DNA of 64,000 bases, from assembly GCF_024124825.1 (NCBI RefSeq), contig NZ_JAMXSS010000005.1:1-64000 (forward strand). The letters are read 5' to 3'. Positions 20,275 to 51,768 of this stretch are shown here, in pieces. The stretch is from Arthrobacter sp. H16F315. GTDB taxonomy: Bacteria; Actinomycetota; Actinomycetes; Actinomycetales; Micrococcaceae. A program made the position numbers and the translations under genes. Each line of letters begins with the position of its first letter. The stretch's first letter is position 1. The notes beneath the pieces are model-generated. The model was not told the DNA's origin and did no database searches. It saw only the letters and a list, made by a program, of their open reading frames with translations.

Positions 20275-20627
20275 GCTCACCGGCAAACATTGTGGTCCGC
20301 GCCCGCACCCGTTTCCACCCGCTTGACAGACTGTGAGTCTTTACTTGGCTGGTCCGGGACCGGCTGGCAGGGTTGACGTTGGTCGCTCCGCCGTGGTTGT
20401 GACTCATGACAAAACTGGCCCCCCGCGGGTGCCTTGCCTATGAACTGTCCGGCTGCGACGGGGTGACCGGCGCCTGCCCGGCCCACCTCAGTGGCTTGAT
20501 CAGAAGCATGCCCGACCTCGCGGGGTCGTGGCTCATCACAGGTATGCCCCGAAGTGATCCCTTTCCGGGTCGGCGCCGGTCGTCAGCGACCGGATCATCG
20601 CCCGTGCAAGGAAAGGAACCGGACGCT

Positions 20628-30721: not shown

Positions 30722-31762
30722 ATGACAGACGCCCGCGACCTCGCCCTCCCCACCGGCTACTCCGACCTCCTCGGCGATCTCCAGGACCGGGTCCGGGCCA
30801 CACGCACCAAGGCACTGCGGACCGTCAACACCCAGCTGATCGAGCTGTACTGGTCCATCGGGCAGGCAGTGCGTGTACAGCAGGAGCAGCAGGGGTGGGG
30901 GAGCCAGGTCATCAGACGTCTCTCCGAGGACCTTCGTAAGGAGTTTCCGGATATGAAGGGGCTCTCAGCCCGCAACATCCAGTACATGACGACATTCGCC
31001 GGAACTTGGGCCGAGGGACCAATTGCGCAGCAGCCTGCTGCGCCATTGCCCTGGGGCCACATCATGGTCCTCCTGGACAAAAAACTCGGTCCCGCCGCCA
31101 CCCACTCCTACGCCGCCGCAGCGGTGGAGTACGGCTGGTCCCGGAACGTGCTGCTGAACATGATCATGAACAAGACCCTGGAACGCACCGGGGCCGCGCC
31201 ATCGAACTTTGCGCAGCAGCTTGCTGCGCAGGATTCCGAGCTGGCCCAGCAGGTCGCCAAAGACCCCTACAACTTCGAATTCCTGGGCCTGTCCCGCGAG
31301 GTCGCCGAACGTGACCTTGAGCAGGCCCTCATGGACCGCATCACCGACACCCTGCGGGAAATGGGGCCGGGTTTCGCGTTCGTCGGCCGGCAGGTCCACT
31401 TCGACGTCGGAGGCGACGACTTCTACCTCGACCTGCTCTTTTTCCACGTCGAGCAGCTCCGCTACTACGTCATCGAGCTGAAGACCGGCAAGTTCCAGCC
31501 CGAATACGCCGGGAAGCTGAACTTCTACATTGCCCTGGTCGATGACAGGCTCCGCCGCGAAGCCCACGCCGACACTGTCGGCATCCTGATCTGCGGCAGC
31601 AAGAACGAGCACACCGTCCGCTACAGCCTGGGACGGGCCACCTCGCCCATGGCCGTGGCATCCTATACCTACGACGCCCTGCCGGCGGAGGTCCGCAATG
31701 AACTGCCCGACGCCGGCCGGCTCACCGCGGCCCTGGACTGGACCGAGGACACGGAAGACTGA
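30722..31762 (+). CDS. yhcG: YhcG/DUF1016-type PD-(D/E)XK nuclease
   Basis: Protein of 346 residues. The N-terminal domain (IELYWSIGQAVRVQQEQQGW, later LSARNIQYM) is typical of DUF1016. The C-terminal nuclease domain shows DFYLDLLFF followed by YYVIELKTGKF, the D...ExK catalytic pattern. Family members are putative nucleases of uncertain role, often in mobile or defence contexts. It has its own short leader after the relaxase operon. Confidence 0.85.
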   Translation: MTDARDLALPTGYSDLLGDLQDRVRATRTKALRTVNTQLIELYWSIGQAVRVQQEQQGWGSQVIRRLSEDLRKEFPDMKGLSARNIQYMTTFAGTWAEGPIAQQPAAPLPWGHIMVLLDKKLGPAATHSYAAAAVEYGWSRNVLLNMIMNKTLERTGAAPSNFAQQLAAQDSELAQQVAKDPYNFEFLGLSREVAERDLEQALMDRITDTLREMGPGFAFVGRQVHFDVGGDDFYLDLLFFHVEQLRYYVIELKTGKFQPEYAGKLNFYIALVDDRLRREAHADTVGILICGSKNEHTVRYSLGRATSPMAVASYTYDALPAEVRNELPDAGRLTAALDWTEDTED

Positions 31763-36739: not shown

Positions 36740-37855
36740 TTACACGGATACCAGGTCCTGCCAGGAGGCAAGCTCGAGCCCGTGGGCGTCGCTGACGGAC
36801 TTGTGGGCGACCCTGCCTGCGGCCACATTGAGGCCTGCCGCAAGGACCGGATCCTGCGCCAGCGCGGTCTTGACACCCTTGTTCGCCAAAGCGACAGCGT
36901 AGGGGAGGGTGACGTTGGTGAGGGCATAGGTGGAGGTGTTTGGAACCGCCCCCGGCATGTTGGCCACACAGTAGAAAACGCAGTTGTGCACCTGGAAAGT
37001 AGGGGACTCATGCGTGGTGGGACGGCTGTCTTCGAAGCAGCCTCCCTGATCGACTGCGATGTCAACCAGCACACTTCCCGGTTTCATTCGGGAGACCAGT
37101 TCGTTACTGACAAGCTTGGGGGCTTTTGCCCCCGGAATGAGCACAGAGCCAATCACCAGGTCGGATTCGACTACTGAGCGTTCGATTTCATAGCCGTTGG
37201 AAGCCACTGTCTGGAGACGGCCCCCGTACTGGGCATCCAGTTCCCGCAACCGACTGACATTGATGTCCAGGATGGTGACGTTCGCGCCCAGGCCCAGCGC
37301 CATGGCGGCGGCGTTGGTGCCTGCGACACCTGCACCGAGGACGGTCACCTTCGCCGGCCGCACGCCCGGTACGCCGCCGAGCAGAACACCTTTGCCTCCT
37401 GCAGGTGCCATGAGTGAGTTCGCGCCCACCTGGACGGCGAGCCTGCCTGCCACCTCGCTCATAGGCGCAAGCAGGGGCAGGAACCGTCCGGTTTGAACGG
37501 TTTCGTAGGCGACGGCCGTGACGCCGGATGAAAGGAGGGCTTCGGTCAGATCAGGCTCAGCAGCCAGGTGGAGGTACGTGAAAAGTGTGAGACCCTGGCG
37601 AAAATGACGGTACTCCGCCGCTACAGGCTCCTTGACCTTGAGGACCATGTCTGCGCGGCCCCAGAGCGCGTCGATGTCCTGGACAATCTCAGCGCCGGCG
37701 AGCACATACTCCTGATCCAGAATGCCGGAGCCTTCACCCGCGCCGGTCTGGACGAGGATCTCGTGGCCGTTGGCCTTCAGCTCGTGCACGCCAGCAGCAG
37801 TGATGGCCACGCGGAACTCATTGTTTTTAATTTCTTTGGGAACGGAGATGATCAT
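36740..37855 (-). CDS. ald: Alanine dehydrogenase
   Basis: Protein of 371 residues, the normal family length, starting [17 protein letters not shown]. It shows VKVKEP-type substrate-binding segments, the NAD-binding [12 protein letters not shown], and [20 protein letters not shown] near residue 300. It catalyses L-alanine + NAD+ + water to pyruvate + ammonium + NADH. Divergent from the omega-aminotransferase, it would regenerate pyruvate as amino acceptor and release the substrate nitrogen. A GTCCAATACC element lies upstream at 37990-37999. Longer N-terminal readings to 38089 are not supported. Confidence 0.93.
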
Positions 37856-38269
37856 GCCGATGCTTTCTGAGAGTGGAAAGTGGTTGGAAGACAACGACGG
37901 GTTCGGTGTCTCATGGCGTGTATCGCTCACCTCACCGTGAAAGATTGACGAGTCTTCAGGCGCTACTCTTCCACCTAGATTACGGCTCAGTCCAATACCA
38001 AAGGGTCCTTGACTGATGTCAAACAAATCATCAATGAGGGCGGCGGGCGGCGGGAACGCTGCGATCTGGCCATTTATGATTGGTTCCACATTAATTGTTT
38101 CAGGTTTGGTATTTGTTTGTCATCGATGCACAGAGGAAGCTGGTGTGGGGGGGCAGCACATGCGCAGCGGACATGGGCCGTTCTACAACGCAGTCGCGTT
38201 CTATGCCTGCTCGTGGGGAAGCTAGTGCCAGCCGCGCTGAGCTGCACGCCAATATCTATAGGAGAAGAA
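37856..38269. promoter_or_regulatory. Divergent ald/aminotransferase control region with GTCCAATACC element
   Basis: 414-bp gap between the divergent genes, AT-rich near 38080-38125. GTCCAATACC (37990-37999) faces ald in the same orientation as the related elements at 47111, 48893 and 49001 face their genes. AGGAGAAG at 38260-38267 is the ribosome-binding site of the aminotransferase. Confidence 0.6.
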
Positions 38270-39526
38270 ATGTCAAGACAGCAGGCTCTGTGGAGCGCCC
38301 AAGCTCACATGCCAACCGTGCTCGCCAACGAACCAACGGTGATTGTCGAGGCCCATGGGGCTTATATCACGACTGACAAAGGCGAACGTTACCTCGATGG
38401 GGCTGGCGGGCTTTGGTATGCCAACGTGGGCCACGGCCGTGAGGAAATCGCCGAGGTGGCAGCGGCGCAGATGAAAAAGTTGGAAACCTGGCACGTATTC
38501 GGCCGTTACCTCAACGACCGCGCAGTTGAACTGGCAGAAAAGATCGCAGCTCTTGCGCCTATCGTCGACCCGAAGGTCATCCTCACGAGTGGTGGGTCCG
38601 ATTCCGTCGACATGGCATTGAAACTGGCCCGGCGGCACTGGCAGTTGCAAGAGAAGTTTGAAAAGTTGACTATCGTCAGCCGGCACAACAGCTATCACGG
38701 TCTTCATGCCTTTGGGACCAGCGTCGCGGGCCTCGAATTCAATAGGGTTGGCCATGGACCCGGTCCGCTCATCCCAGACACACTCCTCGTTGATCCCTTC
38801 GACATCGACCTGGTTGAGAAAACCATCCGGGATTTCGGCGGCGAACGCATTGCCGCTTTCATCGCAGAGCCAGTAATGGGCACAGGCGGTCTTGTGCCTC
38901 CACCAGCCGGCTACTTTAAAAGGATCAAGGAACTCGCGGCGGAGTATGACTTCTTGGTTGTGGCCGATGAAGTGATTACCGGATTCGGGCGTCTCGGTAC
39001 ATGGTTCGCATCCGAGCGATTCGATATTCAGCCCGACATGATCACCTTTGCCAAGGGCATCACGTCCGGTTACATGCCGCTGGGCGGCGTGCTCGTCGCC
39101 CCGAAGATTTGGAAGCAGTTCTTCGAGGGTCAGGACGCTCCGATTCTGCATCAGGGGCTCACCTATTCCGGCCACGCCACGGCTGCGGCCGTTGCGCTCA
39201 AGAACCTTGAAATCCTTGAACGGGAGGATCTTCTCGGACGGGTCCGTTCGCTCGAACCCATCCTGGCCCAGGAGTTGGAGTCGCTCCGCGGCACCCCGGG
39301 CGTCCAGGACGTTCGCTACGTTGGCCTGATGGGCGGCGTTGATCTTGCACCCGGTATCTCCGGCGTAGAAGTGGTGGCGGAGATGGAACGCCGCGGTGTC
39401 CACCTGAGGAACCTTCCGAATGACATCCTCATGATCTCACCTCCGTTTATCGTGACGCAGGACGAGCTCAGGCTCATTGTGAGCACTATTCGCGACTCGC
39501 TTTCCACAGTCCTGAGTCGGCACTGA
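38270..39526 (+). CDS. Class III omega-aminotransferase
   Basis: Protein of 418 residues, PLP-dependent fold type I, from ATG at 38270 with AGGAGAAG at ideal spacing. It shows YLDGAGGLWYANVGHG, TSGGSDSVDMALK, VVADEVITGFGRLG with the PLP-interacting aspartate, and the Schiff-base lysine in ITFAKGITSGYMPLGG. Such enzymes transfer the terminal amino group of omega-amino acids to pyruvate. With ald alongside, pyruvate is the likely acceptor. The carbon length of the substrate is not visible in the sequence; 6-aminohexanoate is favoured by the downstream thiolase type. Confidence 0.88.
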   Translation: MSRQQALWSAQAHMPTVLANEPTVIVEAHGAYITTDKGERYLDGAGGLWYANVGHGREEIAEVAAAQMKKLETWHVFGRYLNDRAVELAEKIAALAPIVDPKVILTSGGSDSVDMALKLARRHWQLQEKFEKLTIVSRHNSYHGLHAFGTSVAGLEFNRVGHGPGPLIPDTLLVDPFDIDLVEKTIRDFGGERIAAFIAEPVMGTGGLVPPPAGYFKRIKELAAEYDFLVVADEVITGFGRLGTWFASERFDIQPDMITFAKGITSGYMPLGGVLVAPKIWKQFFEGQDAPILHQGLTYSGHATAAAVALKNLEILEREDLLGRVRSLEPILAQELESLRGTPGVQDVRYVGLMGGVDLAPGISGVEVVAEMERRGVHLRNLPNDILMISPPFIVTQDELRLIVSTIRDSLSTVLSRH

Positions 39527-39539
39527 TTCTGGGGAATTC

Positions 39540-39571
39540 CCCTAGGCCAACCTAGCCAGGTTGGCCTAGGG
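39540..39571. terminator. 14-bp perfect hairpin after the aminotransferase
   Basis: Arms CCCTAGGCCAACCT and AGGTTGGCCTAGGG with a 4-nt loop, 14 bp after the aminotransferase stop. No T run follows. It probably separates aminotransferase from transporter transcripts. Confidence 0.7.
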
Positions 39572-39732
39572 CCTCGCGCACTAAGGCCCCGTTTCAAGCA
39601 TCAGGACTTGCGTGCCAGTGGTACCGCAGCCAGTAATAAGGGGCCCGGAAACCTGTGGAAAATATCGCTGCCACAACCTGCCTTCGATCATTGTCAGATT
39701 AACCGCACATTTACTTCAAGGGAGAAGTTTCG

Positions 39733-41056
39733 TTGATACCACCTCAGAAGAAGGGGTCTGGCGCTCGTCGGGCCGCCTTAGGCTCATTTATAGGTACCAC
39801 CGTAGAATGGTATGACTTTTACGTATATTCCACTGCGGCAGCCCTCGTGTTCGGGACGGTCTTTTTCCCCGATACAGGGGATAGGCTGACCGGCATCGTA
39901 GCTTCTTTTGCCACCTTGGCTGTTGGGTTTTTCGCGCGGCCCTTGGGGGGAATCGTTTTCGGCCACATTGGAGATCGCTTTGGCCGGAAGAACACCCTCG
40001 TAATCACCCTGACGATGATGGGCATCGCCACCCTTCTGATCGGTTTCCTGCCTACTTATGCTCAGGTAGGTTCGTTGGCCCCTGTACTGCTTGTCATCCT
40101 GCGCTTCATCCAGGGATTGGCTGTAGGAGGCGAATGGGGTGGGGCAGTACTGATGGCAGTCGAGCACGCTCCGGAAGAAAAGAAAACCTTCTACGGAGGC
40201 ATCGTCCAAGCAGGCAACCCTGCAGGCGCCCTGCTCGCCACCGGGGCATTCAGCATTCTGACGTTGAACGGCAAAGAGTTCCTGCTCGAGTGGGGGTGGC
40301 GCCTGCCATTCCTCGCTTCCGCCCTGCTAATTCTGGTCGGAATTCTTATTCGCATTGGTGTCCAGGAATCCCCGGTCTACGAGAAAGCAGAACGGAGCAA
40401 TGCCACCGGCCAGCAAAAATCGCCACTCCGGGAAGCGGTCGGCAAGAACTGGCGCACCGATCCTCCTGGGGATTGGAACTCTGCCGGCGGTTATCGGTGG
40501 CTAATACCTTGTAACTACCTTCGTTACGGCATATGCCACAGGACCGGAGATCGGTGCCTCAGAGACATTGATCCTGAGCGCACTGTCTGCCGCCTCCCTT
40601 GTTGAACTTGCGTTCACCTTCATCGCCGCACATTTCGGAGACCGATTTGGAAGAATCCGGGTTGTAAAATTTGGGGTTATCGGCATGGCGATCTTGGCGG
40701 TACCGCAGTTTCTCGTCTTCGACTGGGGAAATGAAACCGCGATCTTTGCCGTGTTTATACTCATGCGTGTCGCGATATCCAGTATTTACGGGCCCGCAGC
40801 CACCATGCTGGCCCAAATGTTTCCGCCAACTGCGCGCTACACGAGTGTTTCGCTTTCCTATCAAACGGCTGGTGCAATCTTCGGTGGACTTTCACCTCTC
40901 GTCTCGGCGATGCTGCTCCAGGCAACCGGGAGTATCTGGCCGGTTATCTTGTTGCTGCTTGCGATGTGCGCACTCAACTTCATTTGTGTAGCAGTTGCGC
41001 CGCAGAGGAACGATGCGGAAGACCTTGCCCGAGAAGTCGAACCAGCACACCAGTAA
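39733..41056 (+). pseudogene. MHS-family (MFS) metabolite:proton symporter, disrupted
   Basis: TTG start with GGGAGAAG upstream. N-terminal hallmarks are GTTVEWYDFYVYSTAAALVFG, FFARPLGGIVFGHIGDRFGR and IQGLAVGGEWGGAV, typical of the ShiA/ProP-like metabolite:H+ symporters. The frame is lost at about 40457, where an extra base turns NWRTILLGIG into NWRTDPPGD. In the restored frame a TAA at 40502-40504 interrupts GGYYLVTTF. The C-terminal half is intact to 41056. Two lesions suggest real loss of function. It would have imported the substrate or dicarboxylate. Confidence 0.85.
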
Positions 41057-41123
41057 CCAATCTCGGCCGTGGATCGGTGGTTTTGTTCCTAGTGACAGCC
41101 CCGTATTGAGGCACGGATAAATG

Positions 41124-41155
41124 GGGCCCGCGGTCTGCACGGTGACCGCGGGCCC
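41124..41155. terminator. 12-bp GC-rich hairpin after the transporter
   Basis: GGGCCCGCGGTC and GACCGCGGGCCC form a perfect stem with an 8-nt loop, 68 bp after the transporter stop. No strong T tract. Confidence 0.65.
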
Positions 41156-41518
41156 TCGCCAGTGCACTCGAACAGTCGCTGCGGATGTGGCGGCCGCTTT
41201 TCCAAGTGGCCGCCACTCCCATGCACCAGCCCATCATGGAATCGTGGACCGCAATCGCGACGCGGTCCCCGCCAAGCTAAGCCAACGCAACCCCGACGAG
41301 CTATCCGAAGCCATCCCCTGTTGGACGCATTCCACGACCCGAAATGGGGCCCTTCGCAGTTAAGCATGGTTGGGCTGGAGGCCCGGCAGAGGCACTGGCG
41401 GTCGGTGTTGTTTAGACCGAAGACCGGGCCACCGGGGCGCGGAGAACGTGGCCTTGGAAGTTGCCGTTTCGTATTTGGCCGTGTTGACCGGGAGGTGCGC
41501 CCGGGCTTGCAGAGCCGT

Positions 41519-41580
41519 AGATCGTCCGCGCCGCAGGCCCATTCCGGTGGCGGACGGTGTGCCTGCGGCGCGGATGATCT
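41519..41580. other. Long stem-loop with 20-bp stem
   Basis: Arms 41519-41538 and 41561-41580 are complementary over 20 positions with one G-T wobble, around a 22-nt loop. It lies in a gene-free stretch (41156-41672) where no reading frame has family texture. It could be a structured RNA, a leader of the small gene at 41673, or a recombination site. Confidence 0.5.
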
Positions 41581-41672
41581 GCAGCGGGACGAACCCGCCC
41601 GGAACTCCCCTTGGCGTACCGGGAGCACGTCGCGAAAGGACCACGGACCCTGAACAACCCGAAGGACAGACC

Positions 41673-42005
41673 GATGACCACTAATTCCTCCCGTCTGCCC
41701 CTCACCGCCACCTACCGGGGCGCCGGAAGGAAGCGTTCGCGCACCCATCGCGGGACGAGTCCCAAGCCCTGATCCAACCGTTGATCCTCGAAATTTCCGG
41801 CAGGATCAGCCGCCGGGTTGCGCTCCTGGAGGCGTCATCGAGTGACCCGGCTCAAGGCTCCGAGGACCTGGCCGCCCTCGCATGGATCCGGCAATCCCTA
41901 GAAGATATTGAAGCCACCATCCTTGGACTGTCGGAAGCAAATCGCCGCCGTTCTCCAGCGTCCCCGAATCCGGCCCCTTCTTCTGCCGGAAGCCTGGTCT
42001 CCTAA
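41673..42005 (+). pseudogene. Small hypothetical gene, apparent frameshift
   Basis: ATG at 41673 (MTTNSSRLPLTATYRG) after GAAGGAC stops at 41772. A second frame from about 41720 reads RRKEAFAHPSRDESQALIQP, continuing to SEDLAALAWIRQSLEDIEAT and ending at 42005. One indel in the GGGGCGCCGG stretch would join them into about 105 residues. Function unknown. Confidence 0.35.
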
Positions 42006-42139
42006 GTTCCGCCGGACCGGCCGCCCGCCTGGATTTCAGCCCGGACCATGCCGGCAGGCTGCCGCTCCTCCCCACGACGCCAGAACATCTGGCGTGTCCG
42101 AAGTACTCATCACCGCCCTGAGAATAAGGACTCATCACC

Positions 42140-42358
42140 ATGCACGCACCACCCGAACGTCTCCTCATCGCCGTCCACACCCGAAAAGAACTGGACGCCG
42201 CCCTGGATAAAGCGGTGGATTTCCTGAAGCCGGCGGCGGTAGCTGAACAAGTCGGCATCTCTGTCACGCGGCTGGCACCGGGCCGCTATGAAGCGCGCCT
42301 GGACAGCAACGTTCCCCCGGGCGTGACACTCGAAAAGTGGGGGAACGAGCCGCGATGA
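42140..42358 (+). CDS. Small hypothetical protein
   Basis: Protein of 72 residues (MHAPPERLLIAVHTRKELDA) with a compact alpha/beta pattern, ending PPGVTLEKWGNEPR. Its stop overlaps the next start (ATGA). Function unknown; accessory gene next to an IS256 remnant. Confidence 0.5.
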   Translation: MHAPPERLLIAVHTRKELDAALDKAVDFLKPAAVAEQVGISVTRLAPGRYEARLDSNVPPGVTLEKWGNEPR

Positions 42359-42786
42359 ACGGACGGCAGAGGGATCTCTCCGGCGCGCCGGCCGGCAGCG
42401 TGTTTAATCTGCTCTGTCCCGCTGCCCGCCGGGCCGGGTGCTCGCTGCGCACGGCGGCTCTGAACGCCGGGCCGGGGAGAACCGGGTTGAAAGAGTCGCT
42501 GACGGAATGCGAAATCGACATCTTCCTGTCCCTGGTCCGCGGCGACCGCGTCGTTGTGAGGGATCACGAAACCGGGGCACTGTGGGGCGGCTGGATTGAC
42601 ATGACGTTTTCCGACCACGGATTCATCTGGGTGATCACCGACGTCGGTGAGCGGAAGCTGCTCGACATCGGCGTGCACACGCTCTGGCGGCCGGAGGAGT
42701 CCGGAGCGTGTGGCAGCGTTCGCCGGGAAGCCGGTCGCCTTGAGGACGACAGGGCTCTGACCACTGACATCAGCCCCGGCAACTAG
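42355..42786 (+). CDS. Hypothetical protein with strand-rich C-terminal domain
   Basis: Protein of 143 residues from ATG at 42355, coupled to the preceding gene by ATGA. The middle (IFLSLVRGDRVVVRDHETGA, GGWIDMTFSDHGFIWVITDV) resembles a small barrel like that at 36425-36661. The Ala/Arg-rich N-terminus and polar tail look disordered. Function unknown. Confidence 0.5.
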   Translation: MNGRQRDLSGAPAGSVFNLLCPAARRAGCSLRTAALNAGPGRTGLKESLTECEIDIFLSLVRGDRVVVRDHETGALWGGWIDMTFSDHGFIWVITDVGERKLLDIGVHTLWRPEESGACGSVRREAGRLEDDRALTTDISPGN

Positions 42787-42839
42787 AATACGGTGCTGAG
42801 CCTGTTCCTTGCCCGGTCCAAGAGCGTGTTCCCGGCCCG

Positions 42840-43350
42840 CAGGAGCAGCCGCTGCCGGAGGCCATCACCACCGTGTGGGAACCCGCCGTGGTCCAGACCT
42901 GCATTGTTCACCTGATCCGCAACACCTTCCGCTATGCTGCCCGGCAGTACTGGGATGAAATGTCCCGGGATCTGCGCCCGGTCTACACCGCGCCCTCCGA
43001 AGCCGCGGCGAAGGAACGCTTCGGGGAGTTTTCCGGCAAATGGGGCAGGCAGTACCCGGCGATCACCCGGCTGTGGGAAACGCCTGGAGCGAGTTCGTGC
43101 CGTTCCTGGACTACGACGTGGAAATCCGCCGGGTCATCTGCAGCACCAACGCCATCGAATCCGTCAACGCCCGCTACCGGCGCGCGGTCCGGGCCCGGGG
43201 ACATTTCCCCACCGGGTAGGAGGCCCTGAAATGCCCCTACCTGGCCACCCGGGCACTGGACCCCACCGGCAAAGGCAGGGCACGATGGGCCACACGATGG
43301 AAGCCGGCACTGAACGCCTTCGCTTTTCCCCTTCGAAGGAAGAATCAACT
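42840..43350 (+). pseudogene. IS256-family transposase, C-terminal remnant
   Basis: Readable pieces are LPEAITTVWEPAVVQTCIVH, HLIRNTFRYAARQYWDEM and, in a second frame, SEFVPFLDYDVEIRRVICST with NAIESVNARYRRAVRARGHF. The latter is the mutator-type transposase signature. The frame shifts near 43080, a TAG interrupts HFPTG near 43217, and the N-terminal half is missing. Decayed remnant between the small gene pair and the LysR gene. Confidence 0.8.
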
Positions 43351-43430
43351 AAATGCCAACCGCGGATCCACCGTTAAACAGACACTCCCGAGTTCACCGA
43401 CCCCATAGTAGAAATATGGCAGGCGAACAC

Positions 43431-44336
43431 TTAGGCTCCCGGCAGTTCTTGAGGCAAAACCTCTTCCGCCAGGCTGAGGATGGTTTTGAGTCCGGGATTT
43501 TGCGAGTCCGTCTTCCAAGCCATCCGTAGTTGTACGCCGTCGATCTCGTCGGAAACAGGGATGAATGAAACTCCATGGTGATCGGTATTCTCCGCCACGG
43601 AGGAGATGGTGAGCATTGTCCCTACCTCTGCTGAGACAAGCGCCAGTCCGGTGTACGAGTCCGGGGCTTCTTGAACAATGCGGGGCTCGAATCCCGCTGC
43701 ATGGCAGAGGCGGAAAAGGCGGTCCGTGAGGACCGACCCGGGATGGGCTGGCAGGACGACGAACGGCTCGTCTTCGAAGGCCGAGACTGGGGTGCTGTGC
43801 CTGCCTGCGAGGGGATGGTTTTTGGGCACGGCGAGCATAAGTTGCTCGTTGACCAGAACTCGCGTCTCGATGCCTGCGGGAATGTGATCCCAGCGGCCAA
43901 TACCGATGTCCACCTCGCCCGTCAGAACGCGGGACATGGCAGGCTGTGCGTAGTTTTGGCTGGAGAGTTCGAGCACGAGGCCGGGAAGCCGGGAGCGTGC
44001 GGCGCGAGCGAGGCGGCCGACCATCACGTGGGTGGAAGCACCCGCGAAGGCAATCCTCACGCGGCCGGCTTCTCCACGGCCGGCCGCGGCGACGTCCTGC
44101 TTGACTCGTTCCACCTCTGCAAGTATCCGTTGGGCGGGGCCAATAAGCGCTTCGCCTGCTGCCGTAAGACTGACCGAGCGGGTACTGCGTTTAAATAGTT
44201 CAGCGCCAAGTTCATGCTCGAATGCTTTTATCACGCGGCTAACCGGGGGCTGAGCCATATGGAGCCGGCTGGCGGCTCGCCCGAAATGTAGTTCCGTGGC
44301 GACCGCCAAGAATATTTTGAAGTCCTTGATCTCCAT
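43431..44336 (-). CDS. LysR-family transcriptional regulator
   Basis: Protein of 301 residues. N-terminal winged helix-turn-helix: MEIKDFKIFLAVATELHFGR, then AASRLHMAQPPVSRVIKAFE. The C-terminal effector-binding domain is of the CatR/BenM-like layout. Located just beyond the end of the minus-strand beta-oxidation operon, separated by a bidirectional terminator. It is the only obvious regulator in the catabolic region and a natural candidate for sensing the substrate or a CoA intermediate. Whether it binds the GTCCAATAC element is not shown by the sequence. Confidence 0.9.
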   Translation of the reverse strand: MEIKDFKIFLAVATELHFGRAASRLHMAQPPVSRVIKAFEHELGAELFKRSTRSVSLTAAGEALIGPAQRILAEVERVKQDVAAAGRGEAGRVRIAFAGASTHVMVGRLARAARSRLPGLVLELSSQNYAQPAMSRVLTGEVDIGIGRWDHIPAGIETRVLVNEQLMLAVPKNHPLAGRHSTPVSAFEDEPFVVLPAHPGSVLTDRLFRLCHAAGFEPRIVQEAPDSYTGLALVSAEVGTMLTISSVAENTDHHGVSFIPVSDEIDGVQLRMAWKTDSQNPGLKTILSLAEEVLPQELPGA

Positions 44337-44538
44337 GGCCTCATTATATCTGGATCAAGTAACATTGCTCCCCTCATCTATGACAAATGAATTATGGCTT
44401 TCAGGCTCCTCTTCCCGGCCCCGATGAGGCTAGACCGGTCACTTCATCAAGCACTAGCACTGAGGGATGGCGTCGGCTCGTTCCTTCCGCGCCTCTGGAG
44501 TACGAGCTGGACAAGGTCACCAGGCTGAGAAGCCAAGA

Positions 44539-44570
44539 AAGCACGGCCGTCCCGTCGGACGACCGTGCTT
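44539..44570. terminator. Bidirectional intrinsic terminator after the catabolic operon
   Basis: AAGCACGG-C-CGTCC pairs with GGACG-A-CCGTGCTT (one internal mismatch, 4-nt loop), followed on the plus strand by TTTTTT and on the minus strand by TTTCTT. It lies 42 bp after the acyl-CoA dehydrogenase stop. Confidence 0.8.
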
Positions 44571-44612
44571 TTTTGTTACTACAAGCCCCGCCGGAAGCGC
44601 GGCCGGAACAGG

Positions 44613-45812
44613 TCAGGAGAAGGCCGAGATGCCGGTGATCTCACGCCCCAGGATCAGGGACTGGATGGAATCGGTGCCTTCGTAGGTGTGGACCACTTCC
44701 ATGTCGGTCAGGTGGCGGGCCACATGGTGCTCCAGCAGGATTCCGTTGCCGCCGAACATGTCCCGGGCATCCCGGCACAGCGTCCGTGCCTTGTCCCCGG
44801 TGAACATCTTGGCCAGGGAAGCCTGCTCATTGCTGAGCCGGCCCTCGTCCTGAAGCGCCGCGGTGCGGAAGCAGATCAGCTGCATGGCGGTGAGGTCCGC
44901 GAGCATGTTGGCGAGTTTATTCTGCACGAGCTGGTAGCTGGCAATCGGGCGGCCGAACTGGACCCGTTCCCGGGCGTATCTGACCGCCATCTCGTAGGCG
45001 GCGGTGGCATGGCCGAGCGATTCCCAGGCCACGGTGCTGCGGGTGGTGTTGAGCACCGCTCCGACGTCGCGGAAGGACCGGGAATTGGCCAGCAGGTTTT
45101 CTGCGGGGATCCGCAGGCCGTCGATCTCGATCTGTGCCTGCTGGACGGCCCGCTTTGCCATCTTTCCCGTGATGGCCTCGGCGTGGTACCCGGCGGGGTA
45201 GCTGCCGTCGTCGTTCTTTTCCAAAACGAACGCCTTCACCTTCGCATCGGCGGTGTCCCGGGCCCAGATGATGACGAGGTCCGCCACATGGCCCAGCCCG
45301 ATCCAGCGTTTGGAGCCGTTGATGACGTAGTGGTCGCCGTCCCGGCGCGCGGAGGTTTCCAGGGCCACGGAGTCGGAGCCGTGCTCCGGTTCCGTCAGTG
45401 CGAAGGCGCCCAGCTTTTCCAGTTTGGCCATCGCCGGGAGCCAGCGTTGCTTCTGCTCGCCGCTGCCGAGCAGGTTGATGCTGCCCATCGCCAGTCCCGA
45501 ATGGACGGCGTTGAAGGTGTTGATGCTGCCGTCACCGCGGGAGAGTTCCATCGCGACGAGGCCGGTCTGCAGCCGGGTCAGGCCCGGGCAGCCATAGCCC
45601 TGGATCGCTGTGCCGATGATTCCCAGCTCCGCGAACTTGGGCACCAGCTGATACGGGAAGTCCGCCTTCTCCCAGTATTCGTTGATGACGGGGGTGACGT
45701 CTTGTTCGACGAAGGAACGGACACGGGCGATCAGTGCCCGGTCGGTGTCATTGAGGTAGTCGTCCACTACATAGAAATCGGAATTGACGGACAGGTCCGT
45801 GGCGGCGGTCAT
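44613..45812 (-). CDS. Acyl-CoA dehydrogenase of the glutaryl-CoA dehydrogenase family, probably for a dicarboxylyl-CoA
   Basis: FAD enzyme of 399 residues. FALTEPEHGSDS and the WIGLG segment bind FAD. The catalytic glutamate lies in VHTYEGTDSIQSLILGREIT, a pattern specific to the GCDH group. Aligned without gaps to human GCDH ELERVDSGYRSAM, this protein reads ELSRGDGSINTFN. The residues equivalent to Glu87 and Arg94, which handle the gamma-carboxylate of glutaryl-CoA, are Ser and Asn. A decarboxylating glutaryl-CoA role is therefore unlikely; 2,3-dehydrogenation of adipyl-CoA is proposed. The start overlaps the CoA-transferase stop. Confidence 0.85.
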   Translation of the reverse strand: MTAATDLSVNSDFYVVDDYLNDTDRALIARVRSFVEQDVTPVINEYWEKADFPYQLVPKFAELGIIGTAIQGYGCPGLTRLQTGLVAMELSRGDGSINTFNAVHSGLAMGSINLLGSGEQKQRWLPAMAKLEKLGAFALTEPEHGSDSVALETSARRDGDHYVINGSKRWIGLGHVADLVIIWARDTADAKVKAFVLEKNDDGSYPAGYHAEAITGKMAKRAVQQAQIEIDGLRIPAENLLANSRSFRDVGAVLNTTRSTVAWESLGHATAAYEMAVRYARERVQFGRPIASYQLVQNKLANMLADLTAMQLICFRTAALQDEGRLSNEQASLAKMFTGDKARTLCRDARDMFGGNGILLEHHVARHLTDMEVVHTYEGTDSIQSLILGREITGISAFS

Positions 45813-47062
45813 CAGTGCTCCTCAGGGGATCGTGTGGGAGTGCCGGCAAGGGCGCCGGCCAAAACGGGCTCGTCCGCGCCGAGCCAGGCCCGGACCAGCC
45901 CGGCGCCGCTGTCCAGATCGGGCGGGGTGAGGTCGTAGCTCACGGGGGTCTTGGACAGCCGGATGGGGTTGCGCACCCCGGGCTGCGTGCCCTCTCCGTG
46001 CCCTACCGTCACGACGGGCTCCAGACCGATCCGCTCGGCGAATGCGATCCCGGCGTGCAGGTCCTGGATCGGTGCGCACGGGAGCTTCGCGTCGGTGAGG
46101 ATGTCGAACCATTCGGAGGCGGTCCGGGTCGAGAGGCATTCCACCAGGAGCGGCCGCAGTTCCGTGCGGTTGGTGCTGCGCAGCGGTGCCTGCTCGAAAC
46201 GCGGATCCACGGCCAGTTCCGGCCGGCCGATGGTGGCGCAGAAGGTGCGGTACTGGGCGTCGTTGCCAATGGCGATGACCAGCTTCCCGTCGCCGGTGTC
46301 GAAAGGCTCGTAGGGGTAGATGCTCGGATGCTCGTTGCCCAGCCGGGCCGGGGCAACCCCGCCCAGCACCACGGCTGCGGTCTGGTTCACCATGCCGGAG
46401 AGTGCGGAGGACATCAGGTTCATTTCCACCAGCTGGCCTTCCCCGATGCGGTCCCGGTGCCGCAGGGCAGCGAGGATGCCGATGCAGGCATGCAGGCCGG
46501 TGATGACGTCGAACACCGCAACTCCGGAACGGAAGGGCTCGGTGTCCGGCGCTCCGGTGAGGTCCATCAGCCCGGACAGCGCCTGGATCAGCAGGTCGTA
46601 GCCTGGGAGCTGTGCACCGCCGGTGGTCCCGAAGCCGGTGATTGAGGCGTAGACCACGTCCTTGTTGGTGGCCGCGACGGTGTCATAGTCCAGGCCGTAG
46701 CGCACCAAGTCACCCGGTTTGAAGTTTTCCACCACGACGTCGGCCCGTTCCGCAATGCGCTGGGCGGTCCTGCGGTCGTCCGCATCACGGAGATCGAGCT
46801 TGATCGAGGTCTTATTGCGGTTGATCGAGAGGAAGTAGGTCGAGTCATCGCCGCGGGTGGGCGGGCGCCACGCCCGGGTCTCGTCCCCGGCCGGGCTCTC
46901 GATCTTGATCACGGTCGCCCCGAGATCGGCCAGCAGCATGGTGCAGTACGGTCCGGCCAGCACCCTGCCGAAATCTGCGATCAGGATGCCGCTGAGCGGG
47001 CCATCTGAACTGCGGCCGAATACCGACCTCTCAGCGGTGGCGGAGTGTTGGCTGTCCATCAA
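45812..47062 (-). CDS. Family III (CaiB/BaiF) CoA-transferase
   Basis: Protein of 416 residues. LIADFGRVLAGPYCTMLLAD and IKIESPAGDETRAW at the N-terminus and the catalytic aspartate in QLPGYDLLIQALSGLM identify the family. It is similar in layout to succinyl-CoA:glutarate CoA-transferases. Proposed role: activation of the dicarboxylate (adipate) with succinyl-CoA as donor, which fits because the thiolase step regenerates succinyl-CoA. It overlaps the acyl-CoA dehydrogenase start (TGATGA). Its own GTCCAATACC element is at 47111-47136. Confidence 0.88.
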   Translation of the reverse strand: MMDSQHSATAERSVFGRSSDGPLSGILIADFGRVLAGPYCTMLLADLGATVIKIESPAGDETRAWRPPTRGDDSTYFLSINRNKTSIKLDLRDADDRRTAQRIAERADVVVENFKPGDLVRYGLDYDTVAATNKDVVYASITGFGTTGGAQLPGYDLLIQALSGLMDLTGAPDTEPFRSGVAVFDVITGLHACIGILAALRHRDRIGEGQLVEMNLMSSALSGMVNQTAAVVLGGVAPARLGNEHPSIYPYEPFDTGDGKLVIAIGNDAQYRTFCATIGRPELAVDPRFEQAPLRSTNRTELRPLLVECLSTRTASEWFDILTDAKLPCAPIQDLHAGIAFAERIGLEPVVTVGHGEGTQPGVRNPIRLSKTPVSYDLTPPDLDSGAGLVRAWLGADEPVLAGALAGTPTRSPEEH

Positions 47063-47110
47063 TGGGCTCCTCGCATAGTGTTCTCTTCCTCCACCATGAC
47101 GGACCGCATT

Positions 47111-47136
47111 GCTATCCGTCCAATACCTATTGATGG
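47111..47136 (-). promoter_or_regulatory. GTCCAATACC element upstream of the CoA-transferase
   Basis: GCTATCCGTCCAATACCTAT and following bases. Read toward the gene it is ATAGGTATTGGACGGATAGC, nearly the same as the element at 49001-49025. It occurs 50-75 bp before the CoA-transferase start in the 171-bp gap behind the hydroxyacyl-CoA dehydrogenase gene, so this operon half has its own promoter. Confidence 0.65.
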
Positions 47137-47233
47137 CGGTTTTATTGCACGACAGACATAATTGGCCGGATCAACAACAGAGCGCGCTTACCTGGCCATA
47201 CTGACATCACGCTCGGTTGCTTGGGCTCACTGT

Positions 47234-48109
47234 TCAGGAGTAGTCGTAGAACCCTTTGCCGGACTTGCGTCCAAGCTCGCCGCGCGCCACCATGTCGCGG
47301 AGGATCCGGGGCGGGGCGAACCGCTCGCCGAGCGTTTCATGCAGGTATTCGGCGATTCCGAGGCGGACGTCCAGCCCGACGATGTCCGTGGTGCGTAGCG
47401 GTCCGGAGGCGTGCCGGTAACCGAGTTCCATGGCGGCGTCGATGTCCTGGGCACTGGCCACACCCTCTTCCAGCATCCGCATGGCCTCCAGCGCAAGTGC
47501 AACGCCCAGACGGGAACTCGCGAAGCCTGGGGCATCGTGGACCACGATTGGAGTCTTGCCCAGCCCGCGAACCCAGCCGGTAGCGGCGTCGGCAAGTTCA
47601 GGGGCGGACTGCGGGCCAAGCACGACTTCCACAAGCGTGGACGCCGGGACCGGGTTGAAGAAGTGCAGCCCGCAGAGCCGCTCCGGCCTGCTCAGTGGGG
47701 CGGCCAGCCGGGTGACGGACAGCGAGGACGTGTTGGTGGCAATCCAGGCGTCCGCGCCAAGGCTGCGCTCAACATTGAGCAGCGCTTCCTGCTTGAGCGT
47801 GAAGTCCTCCGGAACGGCTTCGACAACAAGGCCCGCACCGCCGAAGTCCATGGCGTCCGTCGAGATGGCGAACCGGCCGAGCAGCGAGCCCAGATCCTCC
47901 GTCACGGCCGCCCTCTCAATGGCCTTGGCCAGCGTTCCGGTGACACGGTCCCGGGCCGCTGCGGCCGCCGCCGTGTCGCGTTCGACGACGGTGACCTCCG
48001 CTCCGGAAACCAGGAAGGCGTGGGCGATGCCGGCACCCATCCGGCCTCCGCCGAGAACACCTACCTTTGTGGGGACGCCCGGGGTTTTTATTGAGGTGGA
48101 GTTGGTCAT
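47234..48109 (-). CDS. 3-hydroxyacyl-CoA dehydrogenase
   Basis: Protein of 291 residues. N-terminal NAD-binding VGVLGGGRMGAGIAHAF, then NTSSLSVTRLA and the catalytic histidine in GLHFFNPVPASTLVEVV. A C-terminal helical dimerisation domain has SGPLRTTDIVGLD. It oxidises a 3-hydroxyacyl-CoA to the 3-oxoacyl-CoA, here proposed for 3-hydroxyadipyl-CoA. Start overlaps the hydratase stop by ATGA, so the two are cotranslated. Confidence 0.92.
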   Translation of the reverse strand: MTNSTSIKTPGVPTKVGVLGGGRMGAGIAHAFLVSGAEVTVVERDTAAAAAARDRVTGTLAKAIERAAVTEDLGSLLGRFAISTDAMDFGGAGLVVEAVPEDFTLKQEALLNVERSLGADAWIATNTSSLSVTRLAAPLSRPERLCGLHFFNPVPASTLVEVVLGPQSAPELADAATGWVRGLGKTPIVVHDAPGFASSRLGVALALEAMRMLEEGVASAQDIDAAMELGYRHASGPLRTTDIVGLDVRLGIAEYLHETLGERFAPPRILRDMVARGELGRKSGKGFYDYS

Positions 48110-48867
48110 TTGGTGGTTCCTTTGTGTTTTTTTCGGTCCAGAAATGCCTGCATCCGCTCAAACTTTGCCTCTGATTCAAAGAGGATGCCCTGGGCGAGTT
48201 CATCGATGGCCGGGTGGGCGGACCTGGGCGCGTGGAGGACACTCTTGGTGAGGCGGACCGCAAGCGGATCCTGGGACGCGATCCGGGCCGCGAGGGCGAA
48301 GGCCGCGGAAATCAGTTGGTCCGGTTCATGCAGTTCAGTGACGAGGCGAACCGCCATCGCTTCTGCGCCGTCGAGCACTTTGCCGGTGAGCAGTATTTCC
48401 TTCGCCAGGGGCTCGCCCACCAGTTCCACGAGGCGCCAGCCTGCGCCGGCGGCAGCGAGGATGCCGAGCCCGGTTTCGGGATTGCCGATCTTTGCCCGTG
48501 CTGTGGCGATCCGGAAGTCCGCCGCATAAGCCAGTTCAGCACCACCGCCAAGCGCAAAGCCGTCGATGGCTGCGATCACCGGCATCGGCAGCCGGGCGAT
48601 CCGCTGGAAGAGGCCCGAATTGATGCCGGCCAGCGCATCATCACGGCGGCGTTCGCGGAGCTGGGCGATGTCCGCTCCGGAAGCAAAGATGCCCCCGGAG
48701 GCAACGTGCGCCCCGGAGAGGATGAGGATTCGGGGATTCCGCTCCAAATCGGCGCAGACGGTGTGCAACTCGTCCACCATGAGCCGGTCTATGGCGTTGC
48801 GGACTTCCGGCCGGTTGAGTTCGACGTGGACGGTCGCGCCGGCGTCGTGGATCTGGATCGTCTTCAC
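48106..48867 (-). CDS. Enoyl-CoA hydratase
   Basis: Crotonase-family protein of 253 residues, GTG start at 48867. Oxyanion-hole region SGGIFASGADIAQL. The two catalytic glutamates are present in FALGGGAELAYAADFRIA and IGNPETGLGILAAAGAG. It hydrates a 2,3-enoyl-CoA, here probably 2,3-dehydroadipyl-CoA. First gene of the minus-strand unit; the GTCCAATACC element at 48893-48917 lies about 30 bp upstream and is divergent from the aldehyde dehydrogenase. Confidence 0.9.
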   Translation of the reverse strand: MKTIQIHDAGATVHVELNRPEVRNAIDRLMVDELHTVCADLERNPRILILSGAHVASGGIFASGADIAQLRERRRDDALAGINSGLFQRIARLPMPVIAAIDGFALGGGAELAYAADFRIATARAKIGNPETGLGILAAAGAGWRLVELVGEPLAKEILLTGKVLDGAEAMAVRLVTELHEPDQLISAAFALAARIASQDPLAVRLTKSVLHAPRSAHPAIDELAQGILFESEAKFERMQAFLDRKKHKGTTK

Positions 48868-48892
48868 CCGCCCACTGTGGCATTACTCATTA

Positions 48893-48917
48893 GTCATCGT
48901 CCAATACCTAACATTGG
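48893..48917 (-). promoter_or_regulatory. GTCCAATACC element upstream of the hydratase
   Basis: ATCGTCCAATACCTAACATT, facing the enoyl-CoA hydratase start 26-50 bp away. It shares the core with the elements at 37990, 47111 and 49001. Confidence 0.65.
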
Positions 48918-49000
48918 TCAACTTATTACTTTTGAGTCATAGATGGGCCTTTAGGGAAATGGGTTACGGCGATTGATCCATAATGATCATTGATCACCCT

Positions 49001-49025
49001 ACTAATAAGTATTGGACGGCATAGC
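49001..49025 (+). promoter_or_regulatory. GTATTGGAC element upstream of the aldehyde dehydrogenase
   Basis: ATAAGTATTGGACGGCATAG, 60-84 bp before the ATG at 49085. Same orientation relative to its gene as the three other copies. The intergenic 48868-49084 region therefore carries two divergent elements. Confidence 0.65.
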
Positions 49026-49084
49026 CGGAAGCTGGGATCGTGAGTGCTAAGACAAGGCCGTACCCGCAGAAAGAGTTCCGGACC

Positions 49085-50461
49085 ATGAGCAACTACGCGA
49101 CCATCAACCCGGCAACCGGAGAACGCGTTGCCGCGTTCCCCACCCTCACCGACGAGGAAGTGCAGGATGTACTCAAGCGCTCCTTCACGGAATACCGCAC
49201 CTGGCGCTGCGCCCCGCTGGCGGAGCGGGCCGCAGTACTGAGCCGCATCGCCGAACTGCACCGGGAACGCTCCGAGGAACTTGCCGCGCTGCTGACCCTG
49301 GAGATGGGCAAGCCTATCGCCGAGGCCCGCGGTGAAGTTGCCCTCGTGGCCTCGATCTACGCCTACTACGCCGACAACGCCGAACGCTTCCTCCGCGATG
49401 AACCCTTGGAGATCAGCGGCCCCGGCTCGGCCGTCGTCCGCACCGAACCTATTGGACCGCTTGTCGGCATCATGCCCTGGAACTTCCCCTACTACCAGGT
49501 CGCCCGCTTCGCCGCCCCCAACATCGTGTTGGGCAACACCGTGATCCTCAAGCACTCACGCAACTGCCCGCAGTCTGCCCTGGCCATCGAGGCTGTCTTC
49601 CGCGACGCCGGGCTGCCCGCCGGTGTCTACATCAACGCCTTCGCCACCAGCGGCCAGATCGCCACCATGATCGCCGACCCGCGCGTGCAGGGCGTCTCCC
49701 TGACCGGCTCCGAGAAGGCCGGATCCGCCGTCGCGGAGGTTGCCGGGCGCCATCTGAAGAAGTATGTGCTGGAACTGGGCGGCTCCGACCCGTTCATCGT
49801 CCTGCCGGATGCCGACCTGGACAAGGCCGTCGCCGGCGCCGTGGCGGGCCGGATGTACAACGGCGGCCAGGCCTGCACGGCCTCCAAGCGCTTCATCATT
49901 GTCGGCGACATCTACGACGAGTTCCTGCGCCGCTACACTGAAGCCATGTCCAAGATCACCCCGGGTGACCCCACGGATGCCCAGACGTCCTTCGGGCCGT
50001 TGTCTTCCCAGGCCGCTGTCGACGAAATCGCCGAACTCGTCCAGGACGCCGTCTCTAAGGGTGCGACCGCCGTCACCGGCGGTGACGCCCCGAACGAAGC
50101 GGGCGCCTACCACCCGGCGACCGTCCTGACCGGTGTTACGCCGGAAATGCGGGCCTACTCGGAAGAGATCTTCGGGCCGGCCGCAGTCGTCTACCGGGTG
50201 GATTCCCCCGAAGCTGCCGTTGACCTGGCCAACGACTCGCCCTTCGGCCTCTCGAGCTCCATCTACAGCGCCGACGTCGAGGCCGCCCGGCAGCTCGCCG
50301 ACCAGCTGGAAACCGGAATGGTCTGGATCAACAGCATCAGCCGCAGCGCCCCTGACCTGCCCTTTGGCGGGGTCAAGCGCTCGGGCGTCGGACGGGAACT
50401 GGCCCAGTACGGGATCAACGAATTTGCCAACAAGAAACTCATCCGGATCCCGACGGCCTAA
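49085..50461 (+). CDS. NAD(P)-dependent semialdehyde dehydrogenase (SSADH-like), intact
   Basis: Protein of 458 residues of the aldehyde dehydrogenase superfamily. YATINPATGERVAAFPTLTD at the N-terminus and MPWNFPYYQVARFAAPNIVL are typical of succinate-semialdehyde dehydrogenases. The catalytic glutamate is in VLELGGSDPF and the nucleophilic cysteine in NGGQACTASKRF; the EEIFGPAAVVYRV loop is also present. It oxidises a terminal semialdehyde to a carboxylate, proposed here for adipate semialdehyde made by the aminotransferase. ATG at 49085 is preferred; an in-frame GTG at 49040 lies very close to the promoter-like element. Followed by the thiolase gene. Confidence 0.9.
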   Translation: MSNYATINPATGERVAAFPTLTDEEVQDVLKRSFTEYRTWRCAPLAERAAVLSRIAELHRERSEELAALLTLEMGKPIAEARGEVALVASIYAYYADNAERFLRDEPLEISGPGSAVVRTEPIGPLVGIMPWNFPYYQVARFAAPNIVLGNTVILKHSRNCPQSALAIEAVFRDAGLPAGVYINAFATSGQIATMIADPRVQGVSLTGSEKAGSAVAEVAGRHLKKYVLELGGSDPFIVLPDADLDKAVAGAVAGRMYNGGQACTASKRFIIVGDIYDEFLRRYTEAMSKITPGDPTDAQTSFGPLSSQAAVDEIAELVQDAVSKGATAVTGGDAPNEAGAYHPATVLTGVTPEMRAYSEEIFGPAAVVYRVDSPEAAVDLANDSPFGLSSSIYSADVEAARQLADQLETGMVWINSISRSAPDLPFGGVKRSGVGRELAQYGINEFANKKLIRIPTA

Positions 50462-50553: not shown

Positions 50554-51768
50554 GTGAACCAGGCCTATATCTATGACGCCGTGCGGACACCGTTCGGCAA
50601 GTTCGGCGGCAGTCTCGCCGGGATCCGCCCGGATGACCTGGCCGCGCACGTGATCGGCGAGTCCGTGAAGCGTGCCCCGAAGCTGGATGTGGAGCGGATC
50701 GATGAGGTGGTGTTCGGCAACGCCAACGGCGCCGGGGAGGAAAACCGCAACGTCGCCCGGATGGGCACCCTGCTCGCCGGGCTGCCGGTGTCCATCCCGG
50801 GCACCACGGTCAACCGGCTGTGCGGGTCCTCGCTGGACGCGGCGATTATCGCCTCCCGCCAGATCAGCACCGGGGACGCCGAGCTGATGCTCATCGGCGG
50901 GGTCGAATCCATGTCCCGGGCCCCGTGGGTGCTGCCCAAGACCGAAAAGCCCTACCCGGCCGGGGACCTGACCCTGGCCTCCACCACGCTGGGCTGGCGC
51001 CTGGTGAACAAGGCCATGCCCGCCGAGTGGACAATTTCTTTGGGCGAGGCCACCGAGCGTTTGCGCGAAAAATACGCCGTGGCCCGTGAACAGCAGGACG
51101 AATTCGCCGCCGCCTCGCACAACCTGGCCGCCGCGGCCTGGGACGAGGGGTTCTACGACAACCTCGTCACCGTGGTCCCCGGCACGGACCTGGTCCGGGA
51201 CGAGGGCATCCGGCCCGGGTCCACCGCGGAAAAGCTCGCGGCCCTCAAGACCGTGTTCCGGAACGAGCCCGAGGGCGCCGAGGCCGGCGGGACGGTCACC
51301 GCCGGAAACGCCTCCCCGCTCTCGGACGGCGCGTCCGCGGCGTGGATCGGGTCCGAGAACGCCGCCGGGCTGCTCGGGCTGGAGCCTCTGGCCCGGATCG
51401 CCGGGCGCGGCGCGCACGCCAACGACCCGCAGTTCTTCGGCTACGCCCCGGTGGAGGCGGCGAACAAGGCCCTCGCCAGGGCCGGCATCGGCTGGGACGA
51501 GGTCGGCGCCGTCGAATTGAACGAGGCGTTCGCCGCGCAGTCCCTGGCCTGCATCAGCGCCTGGGGCATCGACCCGTCCATCGTGAACCGGCACGGCGGC
51601 GCGATCGCCATGGGCCACCCGCTGGGCGCCTCCGGTGCCCGGATCCTGGGCACCCTGGCCCGGTCCCTGCAGGCCTCTGGGCAGCGCTGGGGCGTCGCCG
51701 CGATCTGCATCGGCGTGGGCCAGGGCCTGGCCGTCGTCCTCGAAAACGTCACCGCTCCGGCTAGCTAG
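50554..51768 (+). CDS. 3-oxoadipyl-CoA-type thiolase, copy 2
   Basis: Same 404-residue protein as 1493-2707. In this copy it follows the intact aldehyde dehydrogenase by 92 bp, showing the true operon. Confidence 0.9.
   Translation: MNQAYIYDAVRTPFGKFGGSLAGIRPDDLAAHVIGESVKRAPKLDVERIDEVVFGNANGAGEENRNVARMGTLLAGLPVSIPGTTVNRLCGSSLDAAIIASRQISTGDAELMLIGGVESMSRAPWVLPKTEKPYPAGDLTLASTTLGWRLVNKAMPAEWTISLGEATERLREKYAVAREQQDEFAAASHNLAAAAWDEGFYDNLVTVVPGTDLVRDEGIRPGSTAEKLAALKTVFRNEPEGAEAGGTVTAGNASPLSDGASAAWIGSENAAGLLGLEPLARIAGRGAHANDPQFFGYAPVEAANKALARAGIGWDEVGAVELNEAFAAQSLACISAWGIDPSIVNRHGGAIAMGHPLGASGARILGTLARSLQASGQRWGVAAICIGVGQGLAVVLENVTAPAS

Follow-up and report, generated by a model that had tools for sequence, protein, structure and literature searches.

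A predicted LysR-type promoter class shared by four catabolic units on a plasmid of Arthrobacter sp. H16F315

In the general model of LysR-type promoters, a recognition site lies near -65 and an activation site near -35. Catabolic promoters of this type have a dyad far upstream and a conserved -35 block, and they are often divergent from the LysR gene. Here, we describe an element with the 9-mer core GTATTGGAC that occurs upstream of four catabolic transcription units in the first 64,000 bases (hereafter, the window) of contig C4 (97,827 bases) from the 4.2 Mb genome of Arthrobacter sp. H16F315. Sequence comparisons make it highly probable that this element marks a class of LysR-type promoters, which is also conserved outside the genus and unites the four units, presumably for omega-amino acid/adipate breakdown. 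Its predicted layout resembles that of other LysR-type catabolic promoters, and many relatives likewise have it divergent from the LysR gene; the difference is that the promoter-proximal block TATTGGAC is the most conserved one here. A literature search, with subscription papers mostly outside its reach, did not turn up an account of the regulator, its operator, or its regulon.

According to PMC9477822, NylD1 of Arthrobacter sp. KI72 takes the amino group from 6-aminohexanoate and passes it to acceptors, among them pyruvate, yielding alanine among other products, and NylE1 oxidizes the semialdehyde to adipate. The window, likened to this system by description only, would likewise combine a pyruvate-accepting aminotransferase with semialdehyde oxidation to adipate; it differs in having the alanine dehydrogenase gene ald and a beta-oxidation module on one promoter type. 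The chn-like cyclohexanol/cyclohexanone clusters of loci L052, L054, and L055, which come from members of the same genus, and of plasmid p1 from Rhodococcus sp. DN22 share the operator, related semialdehyde dehydrogenase genes, and related acyl-CoA genes with the window, and those of L054, L055, and DN22 also contain a LysR homologue. In our reading, their upper pathway is alcohol/ketone oxidation, whereas the window has an aminotransferase and ald. As for the regulator, RipR of Salmonella is described as an itaconate-stress LysR regulator with a carboxylate ligand (PMC9637912). RipR regulatory-domain chains match the LysR protein encoded in the window, and the RipR pocket residues Ser100 and Arg148 given there (PMC9637912) correspond, when paired by number and context, to S101 and R148 of the window protein, both of which are invariant in an alignment of five LysR proteins (A1).

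Four copies of a predicted composite promoter element

Exact matches to GTCCAATAC/GTATTGGAC were found at four distinct sites in the window (37990-37998, 47118-47126, 48899-48907, and 49009-49017). All four were located outside the preferred coding frames and upstream of genes, with GTATTGGAC directed toward the gene. These results agreed with the original prediction, made from the sequence alone, that copies of one relative orientation precede ald and the CoA-transferase, hydratase, and aldehyde dehydrogenase genes, as each of the four intervals that it named contained an exact match. It had also assigned about 20 common bp to two of the copies; the shared run is actually 13 contiguous bases (CGTCCAATACCTA).

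Over 48.8 kb, C4 aligned to itself with 99.92% identity when offset by approximately 49,060 bases. The simplest reading is that C4 represents a circular plasmid of approximately 49 kb that was assembled nearly twice, and the window therefore contains part of this plasmid twice (1-14940 and 49061-64000). The alignment of the two plasmid copies contained 37 differing columns, 28 of which were at 48374-48478, where the second copy approaches the end of the contig. Extra C4 matches at 87054 and 96180 duplicated the ald and CoA-transferase sites, from which they showed no difference in the stretches compared (201 and 151 bases, respectively).

The reversed 9-mer, used as a control, occurred 18 times in 4,215,366 bases, corresponding to approximately 0.21 copies expected per 49,060 bases; the probability of finding four or more copies on the 49 kb unit is thus about 6.8e-5. 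In contrast, the exact 9-mer was not enriched globally (21 copies in the genome versus 18 for the reversed control), and seven of the eight off-plasmid matches from a 10-mer genome scan lay, in our reading, within coding frames. These counts address the motif-frequency part of the refutation check proposed in the original prediction. Among exact copies, however, the extended architecture was present only at the plasmid copies and at one chromosomal copy. The latter, located beside a gene for a LysR paralogue, was recovered by the 9-mer scan and missed by the 10-mer scan. Despite the lack of genome-wide enrichment, the flanks of the 9-mer separate likely true sites from chance ones.

We are confident that GTATTGGAC represents the core of a composite LysR-type promoter, which consists of a 23 bp dyad, then TATTGGAC with TTGGAC as the -35 hexamer, and then NANNNT 18-19 bp further on. 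When sites were aligned on the 9-mer, ATTGAT-like and ATCAAT-like arms appeared between 37 and 15 bases upstream, with AATT-like bases immediately ahead of the core and the NANNNT hexamer after it. Among 50 distinct sites, 25 had NANNNT at a spacing of 18 and 26 had it at a spacing of 19 (at least one site being counted twice), and each remaining spacing tested (14-23) accounted for no more than two. This distribution supports placing TTGGAC at -35 instead of reading GTATTGGAC as a -10 element; the latter assignment was rejected because its spacing to upstream -35-like hexamers was, by eye, inconsistent. The best-scoring dyad in the 34 training sites described below and the four window sites lay at -37 to -15. 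A 17 bp ATTG-N9-CAAT box that begins in the core was seen by eye in several sites and considered as the primary LysR box, but it was set aside, being absent from the 12 best dyads listed.

Each window site could be resolved into these parts. The predicted ald promoter (37965-38035, minus strand) has a dyad-like sequence at 38013-38035, the core at 37990-37998, and the -10-like hexamer AAGAGT at 37965-37970, with a spacing of 19 bp. The same spacing is found in the predicted promoter of the CoA-transferase/acyl-CoA dehydrogenase genes (47093-47163, minus strand; dyad 47141-47163, core 47118-47126, CATGGT 47093-47098) and in that of the enoyl-CoA hydratase gene (48874-48944, minus strand; dyad 48922-48944, core 48899-48907, CACAGT 48874-48879). 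In the predicted aldehyde dehydrogenase/thiolase promoter (48972-49041, plus strand), the dyad (48972-48994), the core (49009-49017), and GATCGT (49036-49041) are arranged with a spacing of 18 bp. The T-N11-A pattern was present at the CoA-transferase, hydratase, and aldehyde dehydrogenase sites. Because the -10-like hexamer of the hydratase promoter lies only six bases ahead of the GTG start codon, the hydratase message is possibly leaderless.

A matrix was trained on LysR-adjacent TATTGGAC sites from other organisms, none of them from this genome. It comprised 34 sites for flank scores and plasmid ranking, and 33 sites for the off-C4 9-mers, the chromosomal sites, the LysR-locus scan, the plasmid ald loci, and the DN22 plasmid; the training site L115-5826 was removed as a likely chance match, after which the window sites still ranked 1-4. 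On the plasmid, the full matrix placed the four window sites at ranks 1-4 (19.6-30.7), followed by scores of 3.4 and -2.5 for the fifth and sixth matches. Of 20,000 random window positions, at most 0.01% attained their flank-only scores (2.3-13.3), and composition-preserving shuffles of the flanks gave p values of 0.00095 (ald), 0.0001 (CoA-transferase), 0.0001 (hydratase), and 0.0024 (aldehyde dehydrogenase). All 12 orthologous sites in relatives scored above 5 on flanks alone (5.1 to 26.9), and 28 of the 34 training sites scored above 0 when left out. By comparison, 14 of the 15 exact 9-mers outside C4 had flank scores of -22 to -56, and only one had a positive score (+25.9). The DN22 plasmid, which was out of sample, yielded one clear match (32.5; next best 1.6), located between acyl-CoA dehydrogenase and LysR genes.

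Association with a LysR subfamily and conservation in relatives

The original prediction had named the 301-amino-acid protein encoded at 43431-44336 (minus strand) as the candidate binder. It belongs to the LysR family by full-length similarity: NCBIfam LysR models cover residues 1-290, each scoring below its equivalog cut-off, and PDB entry 7w06 matches residues 1-286 (E 1.3e-41). Alignment A1 was used to collect homologues, and 80 loci were kept from at least 585 confirmed candidates. In these loci (958,423 bases), exact GTATTGGAC occurred 25 times and its reversed form once, while eight scrambled words each occurred 0-7 times. The exact 9-mer lay upstream of the LysR gene in 17 of the 80 loci and was directed away from that gene in all of them. 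Where LysR identity was at least 40%, 25 of 37 loci had a matrix match of at least 10 within 250 bp, none of them wrongly oriented, compared with six matches in 769,522 distant positions when the locus was left out of training. Below 40% identity, matches were detected in 13 of 43 loci, versus five in 862,834 distant positions.

The genes addressed by the motif varied and included family III and family I CoA-transferases, acyl-CoA dehydrogenase, and transporters; in distant LysR loci, the motif addressed an acetyltransferase or a methyltransferase. Across these differing target families, the recurring neighbor of the motif was the LysR gene. The 80 loci had been gathered by means of this gene, and the argument from neighborhood is legitimate solely because the motif played no part in their selection. 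These comparisons support the LysR protein as the candidate binder, as the motif adjoins genes of its subfamily elsewhere.

ATATTGGAC or GTATTGGAC was also observed upstream of LysR genes at L111, L115, L118, L121, L132, and L133, the records of which are cyanobacterial, Armatimonadetes, acidobacterial, and Ktedonospora. The sites of L118 and L121 had matrix scores below 10. The downstream genes at L118, L132, and L133 encode an acetyltransferase, an MFS efflux protein, and a methyltransferase.

The chromosome encodes a LysR protein that is 55% identical to the plasmid protein (C2:1183213-1184100). Its gene is divergent from a CoA-transferase gene (C2:1183213-1185518 for the pair), and the site between them is the only fitting 9-mer outside C4, with a full score of 43.4. 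On its opposite side, the LysR gene is flanked by an acyl-CoA dehydrogenase gene, upstream of which there is a second chromosomal site, with GTATTGGAT and a score of 23.4. The chromosomal LysR protein is a possible second reader of the plasmid promoters.

Orthologous loci were present in five genomes of the same genus (hydratase 89-94% identical). The core copy of the hydratase promoter was kept in all five, and that of the aldehyde dehydrogenase promoter in all four that have this gene as a neighbor; in these four, the two genes form a divergent pair, and both core copies are retained. Under a strict definition, the divergent-pair pattern was found in 2 of the 395 genomes of a family sample that lacked G197, G100, and G092. 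The CoA-transferase promoter was retained at L054, where it is divergent from a LysR gene, and L056 had a core copy between a LysR gene and a family I CoA-transferase gene. On plasmids of Brevibacterium sp. Ap13 and Citricoccus sp. I39-566, the motif lay between LysR and transporter genes. The Kocuria flava locus had no exact core copy; its best matrix match (20.9) was degenerate and preceded an enoyl-CoA hydratase gene.

At L052, L054, and L055, the module adjoins genes resembling those for a Baeyer-Villiger monooxygenase, a lipase-type hydrolase, and short-chain and zinc alcohol dehydrogenases, assigned by family search for L052 and by N-terminal reading for L054 and L055. A GTATTGGAT site lay upstream of the zinc alcohol dehydrogenase gene in all three, and the DN22 plasmid shows a similar cluster. 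These upper-pathway neighbors look like a cyclohexanol-like route.

Proposed regulon and alternative explanations

The predicted targets resemble an adipate beta-oxidation module by best match and context. They comprise genes for an acyl-CoA dehydrogenase (44613-45812, minus strand), a family III CoA-transferase (45812-47056, minus strand), a 3-hydroxyacyl-CoA dehydrogenase (47234-48109, minus strand), an enoyl-CoA hydratase (48106-48867, minus strand), a semialdehyde dehydrogenase (49085-50461, plus strand), and a thiolase (50554-51768, plus strand). Family matches thus supply CoA activation, acyl-CoA dehydrogenation, hydration, hydroxyacyl-CoA dehydrogenation, and thiolysis, with the specific models below their cut-offs; for the thiolase, the best models (3-oxoadipyl-CoA thiolase) were likewise below cut-off and a general acetyl-CoA C-acyltransferase model was above it. 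For the semialdehyde dehydrogenase, ATG 49085 was preferred as the start codon because L052 lacks the upstream GTG 49040, which is apparently out of frame in L054. The remaining target, ald (36740-37855, minus strand), matched TIGR00518 above the curated cut-off. It lies beside a class III omega-aminotransferase gene (38270-39526, plus strand; family models below cut-off), and the presence of a site at ald suggests catabolism of an omega-amino acid of the 6-aminohexanoate type. Transamination followed by recycling of alanine to pyruvate by ald is our best reading of the upper step.

The original prediction had tied the whole ald/aminotransferase locus to the beta-oxidation locus. Comparative evidence supports this tie for ald, the site of which is backed by its flanks. 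For the aminotransferase, the link consists of a weak degenerate match, GTATTTGTT (38109-38117, plus strand), a tentative candidate that is the fifth-best match on the plasmid (3.4-3.7, the next being below 0). Orthologues of the aminotransferase were found neither in 205 other genomes of the genus (limit 1e-170) nor in an order-level sample comprising another 395 genomes (limit 1e-160); proteins with 73% identity occur elsewhere, one of them in Gulosibacter molinativorax (P0007).

From the computed motif, architecture, conservation, and LysR-subfamily association, we infer binding, activation, inducer, and substrate as follows. The plasmid LysR protein, perhaps together with its chromosomal paralogue, would bind the 23 bp dyad and TATTGGAC over the -35 region. 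Measured from the middle of TTGGAC, the center of the bound dyad would lie approximately 31 bp upstream, at the distance usual for a LysR recognition site (about -65). In response to a pathway carboxylate or CoA ester, the protein would activate transcription from the -10 hexamer located 18-19 bp after TTGGAC. Four units would be switched together, namely, CoA-transferase/acyl-CoA dehydrogenase, hydratase/3-hydroxyacyl-CoA dehydrogenase, semialdehyde dehydrogenase/thiolase, and ald. With the aminotransferase, they would convert an omega-amino acid such as 6-aminohexanoate to adipate and then to acetyl-CoA and succinyl-CoA, while ald would recycle the alanine formed by transamination.

Several observations weigh against this interpretation. 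The training sites were picked for containing TATTGGAC, so only their flanks are independent; related training sites inflate the matrix; and 6 of the 34 scored below 0 on their flanks when left out. The dyad arms matched only modestly better than shuffled arms (0.50 versus 0.454, sd 0.019, maximum 0.525). Twelve of the 37 close LysR loci lacked a matrix match of at least 10, and the LysR gene of the window is itself not adjacent to any site. In addition, the stretches retrieved for L052 (18 kb) and L053 (9.5 kb) showed no LysR homologue, and the L052 cluster contains another regulator, of the Fis type. This regulator, together with a helix-turn-helix protein at DN22 and the tight 18-19 bp spacing to NANNNT, would fit an explanation in which GTATTGGAC is simply a conserved core-promoter element for RNA polymerase (the -35 hexamer and some bases upstream of it) that lacks a dedicated regulator or has one of another family. 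We regard that explanation as very improbable, as the 21 exact copies in the genome barely exceed the reversed control, the sole fitting copy of the 15 outside C4 adjoins a LysR gene, and both the upstream dyad and the association with a single LysR subfamily would be left unexplained.

The ald site had the lowest score of the four and did not show the strict T-N11-A pattern, and its proposed -10 hexamer lies approximately 110 bp from the start codon. Furthermore, none of seven other plasmid ald loci (L060-L066), fetched from among 20 records listed out of 316 that matched, contained the exact 9-mer, and their best matrix scores anywhere ranged from -9.0 to 7.0. The regulator might thus bind three sites, with the copy at ald coincidental and ald outside the regulon. 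This seems unlikely given a flank score that 0.01% of 20,000 random window positions attained, a composition-shuffle p value of 0.00095, and the -10-like AAGAGT at 19 bp. Because the other seven loci lack a site, ald instead appears to have been recruited into the regulon locally, on this plasmid. A somewhat better case, although we still doubt it, can be made for the chromosomal paralogue as the main regulator, with the plasmid promoters joining its regulon and the plasmid LysR protein being secondary. A strong site lies between its own gene and a divergent CoA-transferase gene, and there is a further site upstream of acyl-CoA dehydrogenase. However, the plasmid LysR gene is directly downstream of the regulated CoA-transferase/acyl-CoA dehydrogenase genes, and a LysR homologue is linked to the site at L054, L056, L057, L058, and L178. 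With respect to the substrate, the adipate assignment relies on best match and context because the most specific models fell below their cut-offs. Another omega-amino acid or a diamine-derived semialdehyde (e.g., C5) is a real possibility, albeit not the one that we favor: the best models for the CoA-transferase and the aldehyde dehydrogenase were succinate--glutarate CoA-transferase and succinic semialdehyde dehydrogenase, respectively, both below cut-off. Against this stand the 3-oxoadipyl-CoA model of the thiolase and the coupling of the module, in relatives, to genes resembling a cyclohexanol-to-adipate route.

Plasmid context and implications

Other features were observed on the plasmid. 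In this copy, the MFS transporter gene adjoining the aminotransferase gene (39733-41056) is distributed over different frames, and its sequence is not the same in the two plasmid copies. The stretch between the transporter and LysR genes (41089-43377) resembles, by eye, degraded transposase remnants, which suggests a mosaic origin. An IS110-type transposase (20406-21695), a MobA/VirD2-like relaxase (27796-29436), and a YhcG/DUF1016 nuclease-domain protein (30722-31762) are also encoded.

We tentatively propose that an old and undescribed LysR operator class serves as a portable socket that wires cyclohexanol and omega-amino acid upper pathways to one acyl-CoA core. As part of the same proposal, the operator would be common to LysR homologues of Actinomycetota, with a weaker form in several other phyla, and the plasmid sites would be readable by both the plasmid and the chromosomal regulators.

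With these results, an apparently uncharacterized LysR subfamily gains a defined predicted DNA target, making its regulon predictable in many genomes. One proposed switch links genes possibly relevant to the breakdown of nylon monomers and cyclohexanol, and it offers a candidate sensor for adipate-type compounds. It also hints at a way in which a catabolic plasmid may connect a new upper pathway to a regulon that already exists.

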